The position numbers and the translations under genes were made by a program. A stretch of DNA of 64,000 nucleotides from Halogranum rubrum (GTDB taxonomy: Archaea; Halobacteriota; Halobacteria; Halobacteriales; Haloferacaceae): NCBI RefSeq assembly GCF_900114455.1, contig NZ_FOTC01000009.1:1-64000 (forward strand), given 5' to 3'. The notes below the pieces were generated by a model that was given only the letters and a program-made list of their open reading frames with translations, did not search any database and was not told the DNA's origin. Shown in pieces: positions 35,022 to 44,820 of the stretch. Numbering within the stretch: the stretch's first letter is position 1; each line of letters starts with the position of its first letter.

Positions 35022-35933
35022 ATGGACGGAAAACGTGTCCTCGTTACTGGCGGTGCGGGCTTCATCGGGTCGAATCTCGCGAACCACCTTGCGGCCGACA
35101 ACGACGTCGTCGCCGTCGACGACCTCTATCTCGGAACACCCGAGAACCTCCATGACGACGTCGAGTTCGTCGACGCGAGCGTCGTCGACGACGACCTCCC
35201 GACCGACGTCGACGTCGTGTTCCATCTCGCGGCGCTCTCGTCGTACAAGATGCACGAAGAAGACCCGACGACGGGCGCTCGCGTCAACATCGAAGGGTTC
35301 GTCAACACCGTCGACCAGGCCCGTCAAGACGGCTGTGACACCGTCGTCTACGCCTCCACGTCCTCCATCTACGGCAGTCGAACCGACCCTTCCCCCGAAG
35401 ATATGGCCGTCGAAGCCCGGACGGGCTACGAAGCGTCGAAACTCGCCCGCGAGCGCTACGCCGAGTACTTCCACAACCACTACGAGATGAACCTCGCCGG
35501 GATGCGCTTTTTCTCCGTCTATCAGGGCTTCGGCGGCAACGAAGCACACAAAGGCGAGTTCGCCAACACCGTCGCCCAGTTCGCCGAGCAGATTGCGAAC
35601 GGCGAGTCGCCGGAACTGTTCGGTGACGGGTCGCAGACGCGCGACTTCACCCACGTCGACGACATCGTCCGCGGCCTCGAACTCGCCGCCGAAAACGAGT
35701 TGAACGGCGTCTACAACCTCGGAACCGGCGAGAGCTACGACTTCAACACGATGGTCGAGATGATAAACGACGTTCTCGGCACCGACGTCGAACCCGTCTA
35801 CATCGAGAACCCCTTCGACATCTACGTCCACGACACGATGGCGGACATCGGCAAGATCAAAGCCGAGACCGGATGGGAACCGCAGATTAGCTTCGAAGAA
35901 GGCGTCGAGCGCGTCTGCGCGCCTTACAAGTGA
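35022..35933 (+). CDS. NAD-dependent sugar-nucleotide epimerase/dehydratase (SDR)
   Basis: A 303-residue extended SDR. The NAD motif GGAGFIGS is at 10-17, VVYASTSSIYG carries the catalytic Ser/Thr near 113-114, and Y136-x-x-x-K140 forms the YEASK motif. RDFTHVDDIVRG and GVYNLGTGES are typical of UDP-glucose 4-epimerase and related enzymes. It probably makes a sugar nucleotide for surface glycans, but no glycosyltransferase cluster is adjacent. ATG 35022 starts the fold directly. Its 3' end overlaps the convergent DUF389 gene by 10 nt. Confidence 0.9.
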   Translation: MDGKRVLVTGGAGFIGSNLANHLAADNDVVAVDDLYLGTPENLHDDVEFVDASVVDDDLPTDVDVVFHLAALSSYKMHEEDPTTGARVNIEGFVNTVDQARQDGCDTVVYASTSSIYGSRTDPSPEDMAVEARTGYEASKLARERYAEYFHNHYEMNLAGMRFFSVYQGFGGNEAHKGEFANTVAQFAEQIANGESPELFGDGSQTRDFTHVDDIVRGLELAAENELNGVYNLGTGESYDFNTMVEMINDVLGTDVEPVYIENPFDIYVHDTMADIGKIKAETGWEPQISFEEGVERVCAPYK

Positions 35934-37309
35934 CGCGGTCGGCGGGTAGGTAGTCCGACCGACTCCAGTAGTTCGTTCTCTCGTCGCTCGTCGACTCGCT
36001 CGTTTCGCGTCGAACTCGTCGTCTGGACGTCGTTGAACTGGATGCTGACGTCTACATCTCGCTTCGTCTCGTCGACGATGCGCTGTTTGAACACGTCCGC
36101 GAGGCCGGGATACGGTTCGTCTGCGGGGCGGTTCAGCACGATAGTTACCTCCGGCGTCTCGCCGACGTGTCGGGCGAGTTGCACCTCCGTCTGGACGCTC
36201 GTCAGTTCTAGGTCCTCGTACTGGTCGTTCTGCATGACGTCTTCGACGGCGGTGTTGACACCGTTGGTGAACGACACTTCGGCGGCGACGAGGCCACCGG
36301 CGACGACGAACGTCGAGACGAGCACCGTGAGACCGATGATAGTGGGTGCGTACCGACGAAGGGTCTGTCTCGTCCCACTGATAGCGTCTTCGTCCCAGTC
36401 GATGGGTCGGTAGCCGAAGTACCAGAGTACGACGAACCCCGCGAGGTTCACCGCCACGGCGTTGACGACGAGTAAGACGAGTGCGCCGAGCGCGACGCTC
36501 GGGAGTCCCCAGGCGAGGCCGATACCGACGGCGGCGGCCGCCGGGATGAGGGCGGCCGCAATCATGACGCCGACGAGCGAGACGGGCAGCGCCGTCGCGA
36601 GGCCGAACGCCCCCGCCGCACCGGCACAGAACGCGACGGTAATCGACAACAGACCGGGTGAGATACGCTTGCTTATCTGGCCGACCGTCGAGACGTCGAG
36701 AACCGACGTGACGATTTGGCCGTGTTTGAGCGAGAGACCGAAGGCGAACGCGCCGACGATAGCGAGGCCGAGTCCGACGAACTGGTCGCGAAAGCCGAGC
36801 CAAATCATCCGTCTGTCGTCGAGCGCCATCCCGACGCTCGCGATGAGCGCCGACCCGACCTGTGGAGCGATGACCATCGCCCCGACGACGACGGCCGGAG
36901 CGTCCAACAGGAGACCGGCGGCGGCGACGATGGCGCTGAACACCGTCATCGCGTAGTAGGTGAACGCCGTCCGGTGCATGTCGAGTGCTTTCGCCCGAAT
37001 CTCTTCCGGGGCGACGGAGTCGTCTTCTTCCACCCCCGCGACGAAGCGCTCTTCGAGTTCGTGGTAGTTCTGTGTCTTCGCCGTCTCGGCACTCGAGATG
37101 ATGGTGTACTCGCGGTCGTCGATGCCAGCGTCGCGGAGTTGGTTCATGACGTACTCGACGGCCTGTGTGGGAAGTGGAAATTCGACGAGTACGGTGTCCC
37201 GGCGTTCTGTCGCCTCCTTCGTTACGATGTGATCGATGTTCTCTCCTTCCAACACGTCGAGTGCTGAATCCAGAGAGTCTTCAGAGACGAGCAGTTTAAT
37301 CAACCGCAT
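35924..37309 (-). CDS. DUF389 (TIGR00341) integral membrane protein, copy 1
   Basis: A 461-residue DUF389 protein. It begins MRLIKLLVSEDSLDSALDVL, an ACT-like soluble domain (about 1-95), then a membrane core of about eight helices with VVGAMVIAPQVGSALIASVGMALDD near residues 150-175 and CAGAAGAFGLATALPVSLVGVMIAAALIPAAAAVG. A C-terminal soluble domain of about 110 residues (RPADEPYPGLADVFKQRI) ends it. Function of the family is unknown, with transport often proposed. ATG 37309 is preferred since the family starts there. It is divergent from a second copy 103 nt away. Confidence 0.88.
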   Translation of the reverse strand: MRLIKLLVSEDSLDSALDVLEGENIDHIVTKEATERRDTVLVEFPLPTQAVEYVMNQLRDAGIDDREYTIISSAETAKTQNYHELEERFVAGVEEDDSVAPEEIRAKALDMHRTAFTYYAMTVFSAIVAAAGLLLDAPAVVVGAMVIAPQVGSALIASVGMALDDRRMIWLGFRDQFVGLGLAIVGAFAFGLSLKHGQIVTSVLDVSTVGQISKRISPGLLSITVAFCAGAAGAFGLATALPVSLVGVMIAAALIPAAAAVGIGLAWGLPSVALGALVLLVVNAVAVNLAGFVVLWYFGYRPIDWDEDAISGTRQTLRRYAPTIIGLTVLVSTFVVAGGLVAAEVSFTNGVNTAVEDVMQNDQYEDLELTSVQTEVQLARHVGETPEVTIVLNRPADEPYPGLADVFKQRIVDETKRDVDVSIQFNDVQTTSSTRNERVDERRENELLESVGLPTRRPRHL

Positions 37310-37412
37310 TACAACTCTCTGATACGGCGGATTGGCTTGGTTGTGGCGGATTCCGTCCCCCGCTTCCGTCTCGGCCCGAACCTTGATGACTCGGCTTAGT
37401 GACCTATTCGAC

Positions 37413-38804
37413 GTGCGACTCGTCCAGACGAGAGTAACTGACACGAACCGGCGGGCGATTCTCGACGCGCTCGACGACGTCGACGCGGAGTACGCCGTCG
37501 TCGACGAGGCGAGCGAACTCAACACGACGCTCGTGCAGATTCCCGTCCCCGACGGTGCCGAAGAACCGCTGTTGGACTACCTCACCGACGCCGGTCTCCC
37601 CGACGACGCCTTTACCCTCGTGACGGACACGACGGCACGACGAGAGGTGAACCAACAGTTGGCCGAGCGCTTCGTCGAAGGGCCGAGCGGGGCGTTCGGT
37701 ATCTCACACCCCGAAATCAGAGAACGAGCGCTCGACTTACAACCGAACCGGCCGACGTACATCGCTCTCGCCGCACTGAGTGCAATCGTGGCCGTCTCGG
37801 GTCTGCTCTTGGACTCCGCAATCGTCATCGTCGGGGCGATGGTCATCGCCCCCTTCGCCGGGTCGTCGCTCTCTGCGAGCGTCGGCGCGGTCATCGACGA
37901 CAGAGAGATGCTCGTCGAGAGCGTCAACTCACAACTACTCGGTCTCGGTGTCGGTTTCCTCGGTGCACTCGCCGTGACGTTCGCGGTCAAGCAGACGTCG
38001 TTCGTCCCCTCAGGTATCGCTATCACCCGCAGCGAACAGGTCGGACTCTTTCTCACACCGAACTTGCTCGCGTTGACCATCGCGCTCTGTGCCGGTGCAG
38101 CGGGTGCACTCGCGTTGGCGACGGACCTTCCCGTCTCTATCGCCGGTGTCGCCATCGCGGCGGCTATCGTCCCCTCCGTCGCCACCGCCGCCATCGGTGT
38201 CGTGTGGGGTGACGTTCTCATCACACTCGGCGCAGTCGTCTTGCTCGCGATGAACATCGTCTTCATCAACCTCGCCGCCTACGTCGGCCTCGTTGGTCTC
38301 GGCTATCGGTCGTCGCTCGTGACCGACACGTGGACCGACGTCGGATTCAGTCTCCGAACGGGTGCGTACGCGGTCCTCGTGCTCCTGTTCGTCGTCGTCG
38401 TCGTCGCGACGTCGCTGGCGACGGCGCAGTACATCGTCTTCGAGCATCAGGTCAAACAGGACGTCGAAACCGTCGTCGCCACCTCCCAGTACGACGAGTT
38501 GGAACTGGTGAGCGTGCAAGCGGAGTACAACGACGTGAACGTCTTCGACCGCGCCGAGTCGGTGACGGTCACCGTCACGCAGTCCTCGGGAACCGACTAT
38601 CCGTTCTTGGCCGAGACACTCGAACGCCGTATCAGTCAGACCACCGGCCACGACGTGTCGGTGAGCGTCAGGTTCATGGAGTACCAGACGGCGAATCAGG
38701 AGACACAAGCGTCGGAATCGGACCTGCACTCCTCAGCGCTTCGGTCGGGGGCCGGGTCGCTCGGTGCGTTCGGTGCGTTCGCTCGTCCGCTCTCCGCTCG
38801 ATAG
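37413..38804 (+). CDS. DUF389 (TIGR00341) integral membrane protein, copy 2
   Basis: A 463-residue paralog of the divergent neighbour with the same three-part layout: N-terminal ACT-like domain, eight-helix core (VIVGAMVIAPFAGSSLSASVGAVIDD) and C-terminal soluble domain (SSGTDYPFLAETLERRI). The GTG at 37413 encodes the same position as the start of copy 1 (VRLVQTRV against MRLIKLLV). An in-frame ATG at 37386 is possible. The last 24 codons overlap the convergent downstream gene. Two divergent copies may form a heteromeric complex or differ in regulation. Confidence 0.85.
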   Translation: MRLVQTRVTDTNRRAILDALDDVDAEYAVVDEASELNTTLVQIPVPDGAEEPLLDYLTDAGLPDDAFTLVTDTTARREVNQQLAERFVEGPSGAFGISHPEIRERALDLQPNRPTYIALAALSAIVAVSGLLLDSAIVIVGAMVIAPFAGSSLSASVGAVIDDREMLVESVNSQLLGLGVGFLGALAVTFAVKQTSFVPSGIAITRSEQVGLFLTPNLLALTIALCAGAAGALALATDLPVSIAGVAIAAAIVPSVATAAIGVVWGDVLITLGAVVLLAMNIVFINLAAYVGLVGLGYRSSLVTDTWTDVGFSLRTGAYAVLVLLFVVVVVATSLATAQYIVFEHQVKQDVETVVATSQYDELELVSVQAEYNDVNVFDRAESVTVTVTQSSGTDYPFLAETLERRISQTTGHDVSVSVRFMEYQTANQETQASESDLHSSALRSGAGSLGAFGAFARPLSAR

Positions 38805-40193: not shown

Positions 40194-40199
40194 CTTATC
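40194..40199 (+). promoter_or_regulatory. TATA box of the HTH_10 regulator
   Basis: CTTATC lies 24-29 nt before the ATG at 40223, predicting a leaderless transcript. Confidence 0.5.
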
Positions 40200-40222: not shown

Positions 40223-40870
40223 ATGGACAGCGGCATCCACGTCCAACTCGCAGTCGAGGGCGTCTCCAGTTGCCCCGTCACGTCGGTGAGCGAAACAGTC
40301 GACGTAGAGTCGATAACCACCAGTCGACAGACGGCGTCCGGCGAGCAGACGGTCGTCGGCGAGTTCACCGTGTCGGAGACGGGAGACGCCGACGGCGACG
40401 CCGCTCGCGACGTCGCGGACCGTGTCTTTTCGGACGGCGCCGAGTCGGTCTATCGATACACGACCGACGGGGACGAGTGTCCCTGCGGCCGCGTGCCGAC
40501 GCACGGTTGTCCCGTTCGAGACGTCTCCGCGGAGTCGGGAACGGTCGTCCTCTCCTTTATCGCTCCCGGCGTCGAGACGCTCCGAGCAGTCGTCACCGAC
40601 CTCCGGTCGTGCTGTGAATCCGTCCGCGTTCGGCGACTGACTCACTCGACGGCCGACGACCAGCAGTCACTCCTCGTCGTCGACCGAACTGCCTTCACCG
40701 ACCGGCAGTACGAGGTACTTCAGACTGCCCACGAGATGGGTTACTTCGCCCAGCCAAAGGAGTCGTCCTCCACCGACGTCGCCGCCCGCCTCGGCATCTC
40801 GGTGCCGACGTTCAGCGAGCATCTCGCCGTCAGTCAGCGAAAACTCATGGACCAACTACTCGACGTCTGA
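40223..40870 (+). CDS. cysteine-rich HTH_10 (bacterio-opsin activator type) regulator, NarO-like
   Basis: A 215-residue regulator. The C-terminal HTH_10 domain (about 158-209) reads FTDRQYEVLQTAHEMGYF then DVAARLGISVPTFSEHL. The N-terminal sensor domain has six cysteines: C17, C86 and C88 in ECPCGR, C96 in HGCPV, and C130-C131. This resembles the Cys-motif regulator NarO, which controls denitrification genes in Haloferax under low oxygen. A metal, haem or redox-sensing role is inferred. The next gene, 106 nt downstream, is a truncated haemoglobin. ATG 40223 fits the TATA box. Confidence 0.85.
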   Translation: MDSGIHVQLAVEGVSSCPVTSVSETVDVESITTSRQTASGEQTVVGEFTVSETGDADGDAARDVADRVFSDGAESVYRYTTDGDECPCGRVPTHGCPVRDVSAESGTVVLSFIAPGVETLRAVVTDLRSCCESVRVRRLTHSTADDQQSLLVVDRTAFTDRQYEVLQTAHEMGYFAQPKESSSTDVAARLGISVPTFSEHLAVSQRKLMDQLLDV

Positions 40871-40908
40871 GCCACCACCGTGTCGACTGTCGCTGCCCAC
40901 GCTATCGC

Positions 40909-40917
40909 TTAAATAAA
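40909..40917 (+). promoter_or_regulatory. promoter of the truncated haemoglobin gene
   Basis: TTAAATAAA lies 26-34 nt before an in-frame ATG at 40943 and 59-67 nt before the preferred ATG at 40976. If transcription starts near 40943, the gene is either leaderless with an 11-residue extension or has a leader of about 33 nt. Confidence 0.55.
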
Positions 40918-40975
40918 CCCCGCTGTACTAGTGACAGTCGCTATGTGGCTTCTCGCCCGATATCGAAGTACATCG

Positions 40976-41335
40976 ATGTCACAGTCTCTGTATCACGAAA
41001 TCGGTGGACAGGAAGCGGTCGAAGCCGTCGTCGACGACTTCTATGACCGCGTGCTCTCGGACGACCAACTCGCCGGGTTCTTCGAGGACTACGACATGGC
41101 CCAACTCCGGGCGCATCAGGTACAGTTCATCAGTGCCGTCGCCGGCGGTCCGGTCGACTACTCGGGCCGCGACATGCGCGAGGCCCACGCCCACCTCGAC
41201 ATCGGCGAGGACGACTTCGACCTCGTCGCCACGTACCTGGAACGGGCACTTCGAACGAACGGTGTCGCCGACGAGAACGTCGACGCCATCATGGCCGAGG
41301 TAGCCGCGTTGAAAGCACCGATTGTCGCCGAATAA
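40976..41335 (+). CDS. group I truncated haemoglobin
   Basis: A 119-residue 2-on-2 globin. It begins SLYHEIGGQEAVEAVVDDFYDRVL with the B-helix Phe-Tyr pair (about 23-24; the Tyr stabilises bound O2). AHQVQFISAVAGGP follows (E helix), and REAHAHLDI supplies the proximal His near residue 70. Group I globins bind O2 or NO and commonly detoxify NO. ATG 40976 gives the family N-terminus; ATG 40943 is an alternative. It lies behind a Cys-rich NarO-like regulator, consistent with a NO or low-oxygen response. Confidence 0.92.
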   Translation: MSQSLYHEIGGQEAVEAVVDDFYDRVLSDDQLAGFFEDYDMAQLRAHQVQFISAVAGGPVDYSGRDMREAHAHLDIGEDDFDLVATYLERALRTNGVADENVDAIMAEVAALKAPIVAE

Positions 41336-41557: not shown

Positions 41558-43228
41558 ATGAATACGTCGCTCTTCGGCGAGCGTGGTCTCTCGCTGACCG
41601 TCGTCGACGGTCGACTCGGCGAGATTCTACTCGTCGTGGCGATAGCCGCGGTCAGCGTCTCTATCGTGACGACACGGGTGTTCAGTCGGTGGCTCCCACC
41701 GAACGACGCGAAACACTGGCTGCTCCGGGCGCGGTACTTCGCCGGTTGGGCTGTTCCTGCATCCGAGGGAGCGGGACAGTTCGCCACACACCCCGTCGCG
41801 ATTATGTCGCTCGCACTCCTGTTGTTGCTACTGGGGTCTGCGGTCTTGGCTGCAAAAGTGTGGGCGATTACGGCGTTTCTCTGGACCACGTTGGCCGTGT
41901 TCGTCACCGCTCGTGAGTTGTTCTCGCCCCGAGTCGCCGTTCTCGCGTTCGCGTTCGTCAGTCTCGGGCAGTCGCTGTTCTTCGACCTGCTCTCGTTCGG
42001 CGGGATTCCACAACTCATCTCGGTCGGCTTCTTGACGCTCTGTGTCGGCGCACTTGTCCGTGCACGACGAACGGGCTACCGTGCCGACCGAATCGTGTTC
42101 GCGCTCCTGTTACTGCTCGGATTGCTGGCGCATCCACCTAGTTCACCAGTCTACCCTGCCACGCTCGGTGCAGTCGCAGTCGGACTCGCGGTAGTCAGCT
42201 CACAGCGTCGTCCTGTCGTCGAGACAGTCGTCGACGCAGCGATTCCCTCGCTGTTGTTTCTCGGTTATCTGGCGAGCCAGTGGAACATCTTCTCACTGTA
42301 CACCTCGACGGTCGGCGGCCACGATTTCGGTGTCTTACTGTACAAACTCTCTCGTGACCCGGTACTCGAAGTGATGGGACTCGCCCTCTTGGCCTTCTTC
42401 CCACTCGTCGTGTACGTACTGTTCCTCCAGGGAACGGTCGACGGCGTGTTCGACCCCCTCGACCAGTACCGAAACGACACGTCTCCGCGAGCGTTCGAAC
42501 TCACTGGTGGGGCCGTCGGAGTGGTGGTTCTCGGCTGGCTCCTCGGTCCGCTGACGATGGCCGCCGTCGTATCGAGCCTTCCGAACGTGAGTACGGAACT
42601 GGCGCGCGTCTCGTTCTTCCTCGCCCCACCGATTGCCATCGGGACTGCCGTCACCGTCGGTGTCGCCGCGTGGACCGTGAGTCGGTTCGTGGGCGGCAAC
42701 GAATCGAACGACCGTGCCCGACGAATCGTCGCCGTCGTCCTCGCACTCGTCGTCCTCGTTCCCGGCGCTTACTGGTCGAGTGGGTACTACGAGAGCGCAC
42801 AGGACTACTACTCGGTGAAGAACGACGACTCCTTGCGAAGCGTCGTCGGATGGCTCGACCAGCAACAGCCGTTCTCGGGGACGGTCGCTGGCCCGTTCTA
42901 CGTCGTCTCGTGGACGAAAGCGCTGACCGGTCAGAGTGGCCTCACGGCGACACCAGCGGGTGGCTCGTATCGCCCGGACGAGCGCCGAGAGTCGGCGGCG
43001 TTCCAGACGCTCGAAGACCTCCGCTGGGAGGGCGCGACACCCGCGAACCTCGACGCCGCGAGAGACGTCATCCGAGCGTACGACGTCCGATACATCGTCG
43101 TCCCGAACAACTGGCGGCAGACCCGATTCGACTCGCTCGGGACGGTCGTGTACACGACCGACGACCTCGTGGTCATCGAAGTCGATCCCACGATTCGGAA
43201 CACCGCGTCGTCGGGAGGTGACGCATAG
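41558..43228 (+). CDS. multi-pass membrane protein of GT-C glycosyltransferase appearance
   Basis: A 556-residue protein with about 11-12 transmembrane helices in the first 410 residues and an extracellular C-terminal domain of about 140 residues with no membrane segment. The topology resembles PMT/ArnT/STT3-type (GT-C) glycosyltransferases. The first outside loop contains RWLPPNDAKHW, where GT-C enzymes place a catalytic Asp, but no full family motif is recognised. It overlaps the following arylsulfotransferase-like gene by 1 nt, so the two act together. The upstream 222-bp gap has a palindrome (ATCAATTGAT, 41428-41437) and A+T-rich promoter sequence. Confidence 0.7.
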   Translation: MNTSLFGERGLSLTVVDGRLGEILLVVAIAAVSVSIVTTRVFSRWLPPNDAKHWLLRARYFAGWAVPASEGAGQFATHPVAIMSLALLLLLLGSAVLAAKVWAITAFLWTTLAVFVTARELFSPRVAVLAFAFVSLGQSLFFDLLSFGGIPQLISVGFLTLCVGALVRARRTGYRADRIVFALLLLLGLLAHPPSSPVYPATLGAVAVGLAVVSSQRRPVVETVVDAAIPSLLFLGYLASQWNIFSLYTSTVGGHDFGVLLYKLSRDPVLEVMGLALLAFFPLVVYVLFLQGTVDGVFDPLDQYRNDTSPRAFELTGGAVGVVVLGWLLGPLTMAAVVSSLPNVSTELARVSFFLAPPIAIGTAVTVGVAAWTVSRFVGGNESNDRARRIVAVVLALVVLVPGAYWSSGYYESAQDYYSVKNDDSLRSVVGWLDQQQPFSGTVAGPFYVVSWTKALTGQSGLTATPAGGSYRPDERRESAAFQTLEDLRWEGATPANLDAARDVIRAYDVRYIVVPNNWRQTRFDSLGTVVYTTDDLVVIEVDPTIRNTASSGGDA

Positions 43229-44820
43229 TGGCGCGTAGCCGTGTCGGGCAGACGCTCGAACGAGCGACGACGGTACGACACGTCTTCGGTCGGTGGCCAC
43301 CCCACTGGCAGTTCGTCACTGTCACACTTCTCGGATGTGCCACGTTCCTCTTGCTCGGAGCGGTAGTCACGACTGCGAGGATTGTCGTCGCCGGCGACCC
43401 AGTCTCGATTGCGGCCGTCGCTCTCGGATGGGTCGTCGCACTCTGGGTCGTGTCGTCTCCGACAGGTGAACCGAGTTCCTTCGACGAGTGGACGGTGTCG
43501 CGCGACGACGCCTCGGTCGTTCGACTCCTCGTCGTGTTCGTCGTCCTCCTCCTCGTTCTCCCGGTCGGCGTCAATGCTCTGACCGGCGACGTTCGTCCGT
43601 CCGCAGAGACTGCACCACCGACCGAGAACATCACGTTCTACACCGTTCAGGGCAACGAACAGGGCAGCAAGACGGCCGGTGTGTTCGCTATCGACACCGA
43701 ATCGAAGGCACTCGTCTGGGAGCACACGTCGTTTCACACCAAGTACTTCGACGTCGACCCGCTCGACAACGAGACGATTCTCTTCACGGTCAAGCGAAAC
43801 GCCGACCGCTTCGAGAGCGGCTACTCGTGGCAAGCGGTGGTGTTGAACTGGCGGACCGGCGAAATCGTCGACACGTTCTTGGTGCCACCCGACACCCACG
43901 ACGTGGACTACCTCGGTGACGGCCAGTACGTCGTCGCCAACAAACTCCAGAAACGACTCCAAGACCCGTGGCGCGCCGTCCTTCGAGCGAACGACTGGAG
44001 CGGTCAGAACCGTTCGGTTATCGGCCACCAAATCTACATCTACGACGCCAACACCGACGAAATCGTCTGGTCGTACTACTTCGACGACCATTTCCCCCCG
44101 ACGGACGGCGACGGTATCGACAACGACTACACGCATCTGAACGACGTCGACTCGGTTCGGAACGGCAGCGCGTTTCTCGTCAGCCCCCGCGAGTTCGACC
44201 GCGTCTTGCTCATCAACCGCTCGACGAAGGAGGTCGAGTGGGCTGTCGGTGAAGAGGACAACTACGACATCCTCCACGAGCAACACAACCCCGTCCTGCT
44301 CTCGGAAGACCCGCCGACGGTCCTCATCGCCGACAGTGAGAACGACCGCATCGTCGAGTACACGAAACGGGGCGACGACTGGCTTCTCTCGTGGGAGTAC
44401 CACGGTGACCTCGCGTGGCCACGAGACGCCGACCGACTTCCGAACGGAAACACGCTCATCGCGGACAGCGGTGGCGGTCGGTTGGTCGAAGTCTCTCCCG
44501 AAGGCGAGGTAGTCTGGGAACACGACGTCGGCTTCAGCGTCTACGACGTCGAACGGTTGGAGTACGGCGACGAATCAGCAGGGCCACCGATGCACACGCT
44601 CACCGACGGGGTCAGCGTCGGCGACGACGGGGCTTCGAACGCCGGCATCGGCGACCAACTCTACGACCAGTGGACCGATTACTACCAACTCGCTCGGTGG
44701 GTGATGCCACAGTGGGTGACGTCGCGTGATTTCTTCCTCCTGCACGTCGCCGTCGTCGTCGTACTCGGGTGGCTCCGATTCGAGTGGCGAGTGAGACGGA
44801 CGCGACCGCTGTCGACGTAG
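43228..44820 (+). CDS. membrane-anchored arylsulfotransferase-family beta-propeller protein
   Basis: A 530-residue protein starting at GTG 43228, 1 nt inside the upstream gene. Three membrane segments occur near residues 28-55, 58-75 and 90-112, one more near 505-520. The middle (about 130-490) is a beta-propeller with repeated steps such as YTHLNDVDSV, HEQHNPVLL and LPNGNTLIADSGGGRLVEV, matching ASST-type arylsulfotransferases. In that family a His accepts sulfate from aryl sulfates. Coupled to a GT-C-like membrane protein, it may modify a surface polymer or lipid-linked sugar; this is inference. Confidence 0.8.
   Translation: MARSRVGQTLERATTVRHVFGRWPPHWQFVTVTLLGCATFLLLGAVVTTARIVVAGDPVSIAAVALGWVVALWVVSSPTGEPSSFDEWTVSRDDASVVRLLVVFVVLLLVLPVGVNALTGDVRPSAETAPPTENITFYTVQGNEQGSKTAGVFAIDTESKALVWEHTSFHTKYFDVDPLDNETILFTVKRNADRFESGYSWQAVVLNWRTGEIVDTFLVPPDTHDVDYLGDGQYVVANKLQKRLQDPWRAVLRANDWSGQNRSVIGHQIYIYDANTDEIVWSYYFDDHFPPTDGDGIDNDYTHLNDVDSVRNGSAFLVSPREFDRVLLINRSTKEVEWAVGEEDNYDILHEQHNPVLLSEDPPTVLIADSENDRIVEYTKRGDDWLLSWEYHGDLAWPRDADRLPNGNTLIADSGGGRLVEVSPEGEVVWEHDVGFSVYDVERLEYGDESAGPPMHTLTDGVSVGDDGASNAGIGDQLYDQWTDYYQLARWVMPQWVTSRDFFLLHVAVVVVLGWLRFEWRVRRTRPLST

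Follow-up and report, generated by a model that had tools for sequence, protein, structure and literature searches.

A NarO-family regulator probably dedicated to a neighbouring truncated haemoglobin gene in Halogranum rubrum

The window analysed here, 64,000 nucleotides of Halogranum rubrum DNA (GCF_900114455.1, contig NZ_FOTC01000009.1, positions 1 to 64,000, forward strand), holds a cysteine-rich regulator gene followed by a gene for a truncated haemoglobin. Is the regulator dedicated to its neighbour, and what might the pair do? A preliminary description had proposed a NarO-like regulator, a sensor of nitric oxide or oxygen, controlling its own haemoglobin. The NarO-like character of the regulator and its dedication to the globin received strong support from comparative genomics (synteny, clade and promoter), and a search of the literature found no description of the regulator-globin pair. 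We consider it probable that the regulator is a NarO-family paralogue dedicated to one globin, with a signal sensed by cysteines and a part in the handling of nitric oxide (NO) or oxygen. For the NarO/DmsR family, whose signal is not settled, one regulator with one target would be a far simpler place than a denitrification regulon to identify signal and cofactor. The pair also serves as an example of joint divergence, after duplication, of a regulator and the DNA site that it would bind.

Table 1. Features of the regulator-globin locus, with positions in the window or residues of the regulator.
Feature	Position	Strand or part	Basis and remarks
Regulator ORF	40223..40870	+	215 aa; Pfam, orthologue alignment, AlphaFold2 model
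DmsR_N sensor domain	regulator residues 1-142	N-terminal	Pfam PF24277
HTH_10 DNA-binding domain	regulator residues 158-210	C-terminal	Pfam PF04967
Cys17, first cysteine of the C-Xn-C-X-C-X7-C motif	40271..40273	+	comparison of paired and unpaired proteins
Cys86, Cys88, Cys96 (CPCGRVPTHGC)	40478..40510	+	comparison of paired and unpaired proteins
Cys130-Cys131, extra pair typical of the paired clade	40610..40615	+	comparison of paired and unpaired proteins
TATA-like box of the regulator's own promoter	40194..40199	+	about 29 nt 5' of ATG, leaderless type
TTAAATAAA, TATA-like box upstream of globin	40909..40917	+	strong conservation in 38 paired promoters
Operator-like element CCGCTGTACTAG; clade consensus CGAGTATnTTAG	40920..40931	+	clade profile compared with CGAAYATDKTYG
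cGTATCC-like element	40940..40946	+	conserved; 30-36 nt 5' of globin ATG
Group I truncated haemoglobin	40976..41335	+	119 aa; PF01152, structure matches, start conserved in relatives

The regulator scored 146.5 bits against DmsR_N (cut-off 27) and 66.3 bits against HTH_10 (cut-off 23.1), the latter in agreement with the domain first assigned to it. The six cysteines described for it were found at positions 17, 86, 88, 96, 130 and 131, with CPC at 86-88 and HGCP at 94-97. With DmsR_N, HTH_10 and the C-Xn-C-X-C-X7-C cysteine motif, the protein is of the NarO/DmsR type, and no second DmsR_N protein was found in the 4.57 Mb genome. A Bat-type activator was rejected: BAT scored 17.2 bits, below its cut-off of 25.8, and neither PAS nor GAF was found in the regulator by Pfam.

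A search of solved structures with the regulator sequence returned no relative of note. In the AlphaFold2 model (mean pLDDT 88) the sensor half reads as two beta-alpha-beta-beta-alpha-beta repeats, and Cys17 and Cys86 both lie at the start of the equivalent first helix, one per repeat. This equivalent placement in the model hints at a possible shared cofactor site. Fold comparison matched the sensor half mainly to common ferredoxin/ACT-like arrangements (best 5m86, Z 9.4, 135 residues, rmsd 3.2) and the DNA-binding half to sigma-region-4 and NarL-type HTHs; for both halves it yielded no function assignment.

The downstream gene had been called a group I truncated haemoglobin, and this call holds: the protein matched PF01152 at 89.5 bits, and among solved structures its best relatives, 5ab8 and Mycobacterium tuberculosis HbN (1idr), are both group I truncated haemoglobins. 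The pocket residues are Tyr23, Leu44, Gln48 and His71, which we take to be B10, E7, E11 and F8, respectively, carrying the labels over from HbN. The B10, E11 and F8 residues are invariant among 65 haloarchaeal globins. ATG 40976 is the start kept in relatives. GTG 40931 was rejected as a start since it is not conserved and one relative has its frame closed immediately 5' of the ATG. The globin follows the regulator on the same + strand, and the spacing, given before as 106 nt, is 105 nt when counted to the conserved ATG.

The profile of the regulator was used to search 392 genomes of the order. This search gave 36 matches of at least 283 bits, after which scores dropped to 220 bits. A globin lies downstream on the same strand for 36/36 of the high-scoring regulators, at a distance of 77-188 nt in 35 of the 36 and 1.7 kb in the remaining one (G191). 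The 18 family members that come next in score were compared by coordinates, and none has a globin adjacent. Synteny therefore excludes pairing by chance (36/36 vs 0/18). A 37th regulator is frameshifted and stands beside its globin (L096, G182). Because the two genes stay together almost without exception in relatives, the regulator is very probably a dedicated globin switch.

The pair is kept in 35 of the 392 genomes sampled. Among its named carriers are Halogranum, Haloprofundus, Haladaptatus, Halomarina and Halobium. Of the named relatives, Halogranum amylolyticum is the nearest, with a regulator that is 74% identical. The distribution is patchy, and in several species the pair is on plasmids. 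Two genomes hold two copies each, G215 (contig C1) and G223 (L065, L111). At L102 (G191) the regulator and the globin are separated by about 1.7 kb of extra sequence. Two loci, L097 (G021) and L098 (G271), carry a globin of the paired type but lack both the regulator and a clear NarO-type motif; these globins perhaps stand alone after loss of the regulator. An arginase gene lies 5' of the regulator, a placement found only within the genus. Elsewhere in the window, two genes for DUF389 membrane proteins stand head to head at 35924-37525 (-) and 37332-38804 (+), and 43228-44820 (+) encodes an arylsulfotransferase-like protein (PF14269), preceded by a protein without a known Pfam family.

In a tree of 127 family proteins, paired and unpaired, the paired regulators form one clade with support 100/100. 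The only row of this clade not flagged as paired, L059, is the G191 regulator whose globin is 1.7 kb off. The clade falls inside a group (99/93) that also holds NarO-like proteins linked to nar in Haloferax and Halorussus. The Haloferax protein of this group adjoins a Rieske gene, which is taken to be part of the nar operon. We rejected the regulator as a NarO orthologue, since it belongs to its own clade (100/100) and has arginase and globin, not nar, as neighbours. The globin tree, at only 119 columns, has too few to place the paired globins as one clade or several.

The cysteines were compared across paired and unpaired proteins. All four motif cysteines (17, 86, 88 and 96) are present in 39/39 paired regulators. 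Cys17, Cys86 and Cys88 are near universal, being found in 38/38 paired and 88/89 unpaired proteins. Cys96 is present in 38/38 paired proteins vs 39/89 (44%) of the unpaired ones, and at least one cysteine at 130/131 was found in 34/39 paired vs 1/88 unpaired proteins. The C-Xn-C-X-C-X7-C motif was reportedly described for NarO by Hattori and co-workers (Hattori et al. 2016), and its four cysteines are said to be necessary.

Each gene of the pair has a conserved promoter. Before the regulator, 38 paired loci share a conserved T-rich box that spans roughly -32 to -26, and no NarO-like element was seen there in these loci. Auto-regulation through the same site was rejected for this reason. Before the globin, the TATA-like TTAAATAA begins at 40909, where the preliminary description had placed the promoter. 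The order in 38 paired globin promoters is TTAAATAA, then CCCGAgTATnTTAGCGA, then the cGTATCC-like element, a possible weak second TATA box. An activator site upstream of TTAAATAA was rejected, as no conserved columns were found there in the 38 promoters.

A motif published for denitrification promoters of H. mediterranei is CGAAYATDKTYG (PMC11218638). Among all offsets, this motif fits the column profile of the clade best at 40920-40931, and the fit beats 4983/5000 letter-shuffled motifs (17/5000 were as good). The match covers 10 positions of the clade consensus and 6/12 positions of the H. rubrum copy; since this copy is poor, the case for a NarO-type operator rests on the clade. In paired promoters the element stands at about -56 from the ATG, its start falling mostly 53-57 nt 5' of it. 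Most unpaired globins examined carry the CGAAYATDKTYG motif itself, mostly 50-57 nt 5' of the ATG (for example, CGAATATATTCG at -52). Because of the motif fit and the same distance from the ATG, the promoters of paired globins resemble a NarO-type promoter that has diverged. In the globin promoters of L216, L217, L220 and L221, a CACAC-type sequence with an A/T-rich stretch recurs slightly upstream of the NarO-type motif.

Globins of this family are associated with denitrification genes in a different way when unpaired. Unpaired globins co-occur with NorB (143/222 vs 42/135 genomes, p ~1e-9) and the pair is depleted in NirK genomes (9/35 vs 189/357, p 0.002), both p values being optimistic since the genomes are related by descent. 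The pair is not linked to NorB (14/35 genomes), and the H. rubrum genome gave no match to NirK and none to NorB. In four genomes an unpaired globin lies directly upstream of norB (L216, L217, L218 and L219). At these loci the globin is about 160-180 nt from norB on the same strand, and in 3/4 a NarO-type motif lies 51-53 nt before the ATG. The association of globin with NO reductase in haloarchaea makes NO relevant to the globin. As the pair is rarer in NirK genomes, self-made denitrification NO cannot be its general purpose, and the pair as a general denitrification accessory is ruled out by the same depletion. Pairing, we infer, took the globin out of the denitrification regulon and let it answer NO or low oxygen in non-denitrifiers.

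The same data bear on a competing account, in which the regulator would be an ordinary low-oxygen regulator with several targets, like NarO, and the globin an oxygen-handling member of its regulon with no NO role. We think this unlikely, but it has substance: anaerobic respiration is where NarO and DmsR work (PMC11218638, PMC10062603), genomes with NirK tend to lack the pair, and H. rubrum itself has neither NirK nor NorB. Against several targets, a scan of the 4.57 Mb genome that tolerated up to 3 mismatches found the full pattern of TATA box plus element a single time, although a looser site could be missed. Against an oxygen role without NO, globins of this family co-occur with NorB and in some genomes stand immediately upstream of its gene.

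A second alternative concerns the sign of regulation and is compatible with dedicated pairing. The regulator may be a repressor that sits between TATA box and start site and is released by a reaction of its cysteines with NO, oxygen or oxidants. In paired promoters TTAAATAA is only a few nucleotides 5' of the conserved element, and a location between this box and the start site suggests a repressor-like position. Unpaired globin promoters show the reverse arrangement at the same distance from the ATG: the motif is just 5' of a TATA-like box that itself stands about 30 nt before the ATG, and this position upstream of the box suggests an activator. Characterised NarO/DmsR relatives are moreover described as activators, in anaerobic respiration (PMC11218638, PMC10062603). 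Because the characterised members of the family act in this way, activation of the globin appears somewhat more likely than repression, by analogy, and we regard release of a repressor as a doubtful though tenable choice. It is very improbable that the two genes merely travel as a small cassette while the regulator controls something else: the pair is indeed plasmid-borne in several species, patchy and duplicated in two genomes, but the globin promoter is conserved and resembles the NarO motif, with no comparable element before the regulator.

The dedicated NarO-family paralogue for one globin is thus the reading that the sequence comparisons support well. A NarO/DmsR-family regulator would have separated in haloarchaea as a single clade and become dedicated to a single target, the gene for the adjoining group I truncated haemoglobin. 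Transcribed from a leaderless-type promoter of its own, the regulator would bind the diverged NarO-type site at 40920-40931 in the globin promoter. A low-oxygen or NO signal sensed by the cysteine cluster would then change transcription of the globin, whose HbN-like Tyr-B10/Gln-E11/His-F8 pocket most likely serves to remove NO (NO dioxygenase) or to handle scarce oxygen. The pairing, the clade, the cysteines and the conservation of the promoter are observed, and from them we infer the binding, the signal, the sign of regulation and the enzyme activity of the globin. Membership in the family makes it reasonable to expect that NO or oxygen is sensed via a metal or redox cofactor. The globin, by its likeness to HbN, may reasonably be expected to act as an NO dioxygenase. 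It is probably for NO protection; archaeal globins are without a proven function of this kind (PMC11218638). A more specific version, which we offer tentatively and hold to be less likely, would place an NO-reactive metal or Fe-S centre at the cysteine cluster, including 130/131. The regulator would then control only an NO-dioxygenase haemoglobin, protecting non-denitrifiers from the NO of their neighbours.

How does the pair compare with known systems? HbN (trHbN) of M. tuberculosis has NO dioxygenase activity. Like the H. rubrum globin it belongs to group I, and the Tyr-B10, Leu-E7, Gln-E11 and His-F8 positions match; however, HbN is bacterial and has no such regulator. The cyanoglobin E6P09_11805 of H. 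mediterranei is likewise a truncated haemoglobin from a haloarchaeon; its promoter carries a NarO-type motif, and it is up 4.16 log2 in denitrifying conditions (PMC11218638). No paired regulator is reported for it, and its promoter motif is instead shared with denitrification genes (PMC11218638).

Among regulators, Bat, the bacterio-opsin activator, shares the HTH_10 domain but has PAS, GAF and BAT domains, whereas the H. rubrum protein is without PAS and GAF. DmsR of Halobacterium salinarum, an activator of DMSO respiration, has the same domain order and is the source of the Pfam name of the sensor domain. Its target is the dms operon, unlike that proposed for the regulator here. NarO of Haloferax volcanii, a denitrification regulator upstream of the nar operon, is also among the closest systems. 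The H. rubrum regulator differs from it in its separate clade (100/100), about 45% identity to the nar-linked Haloferax proteins, its place beside a globin, the extra Cys130/131, a diverged operator-like element and a genome without NirK/NorB. However, it shares with NarO the DmsR_N and HTH_10 domains, the cysteine motif, a larger clade with the nar-linked Haloferax proteins and, on the profile of the clade, a similar promoter element.
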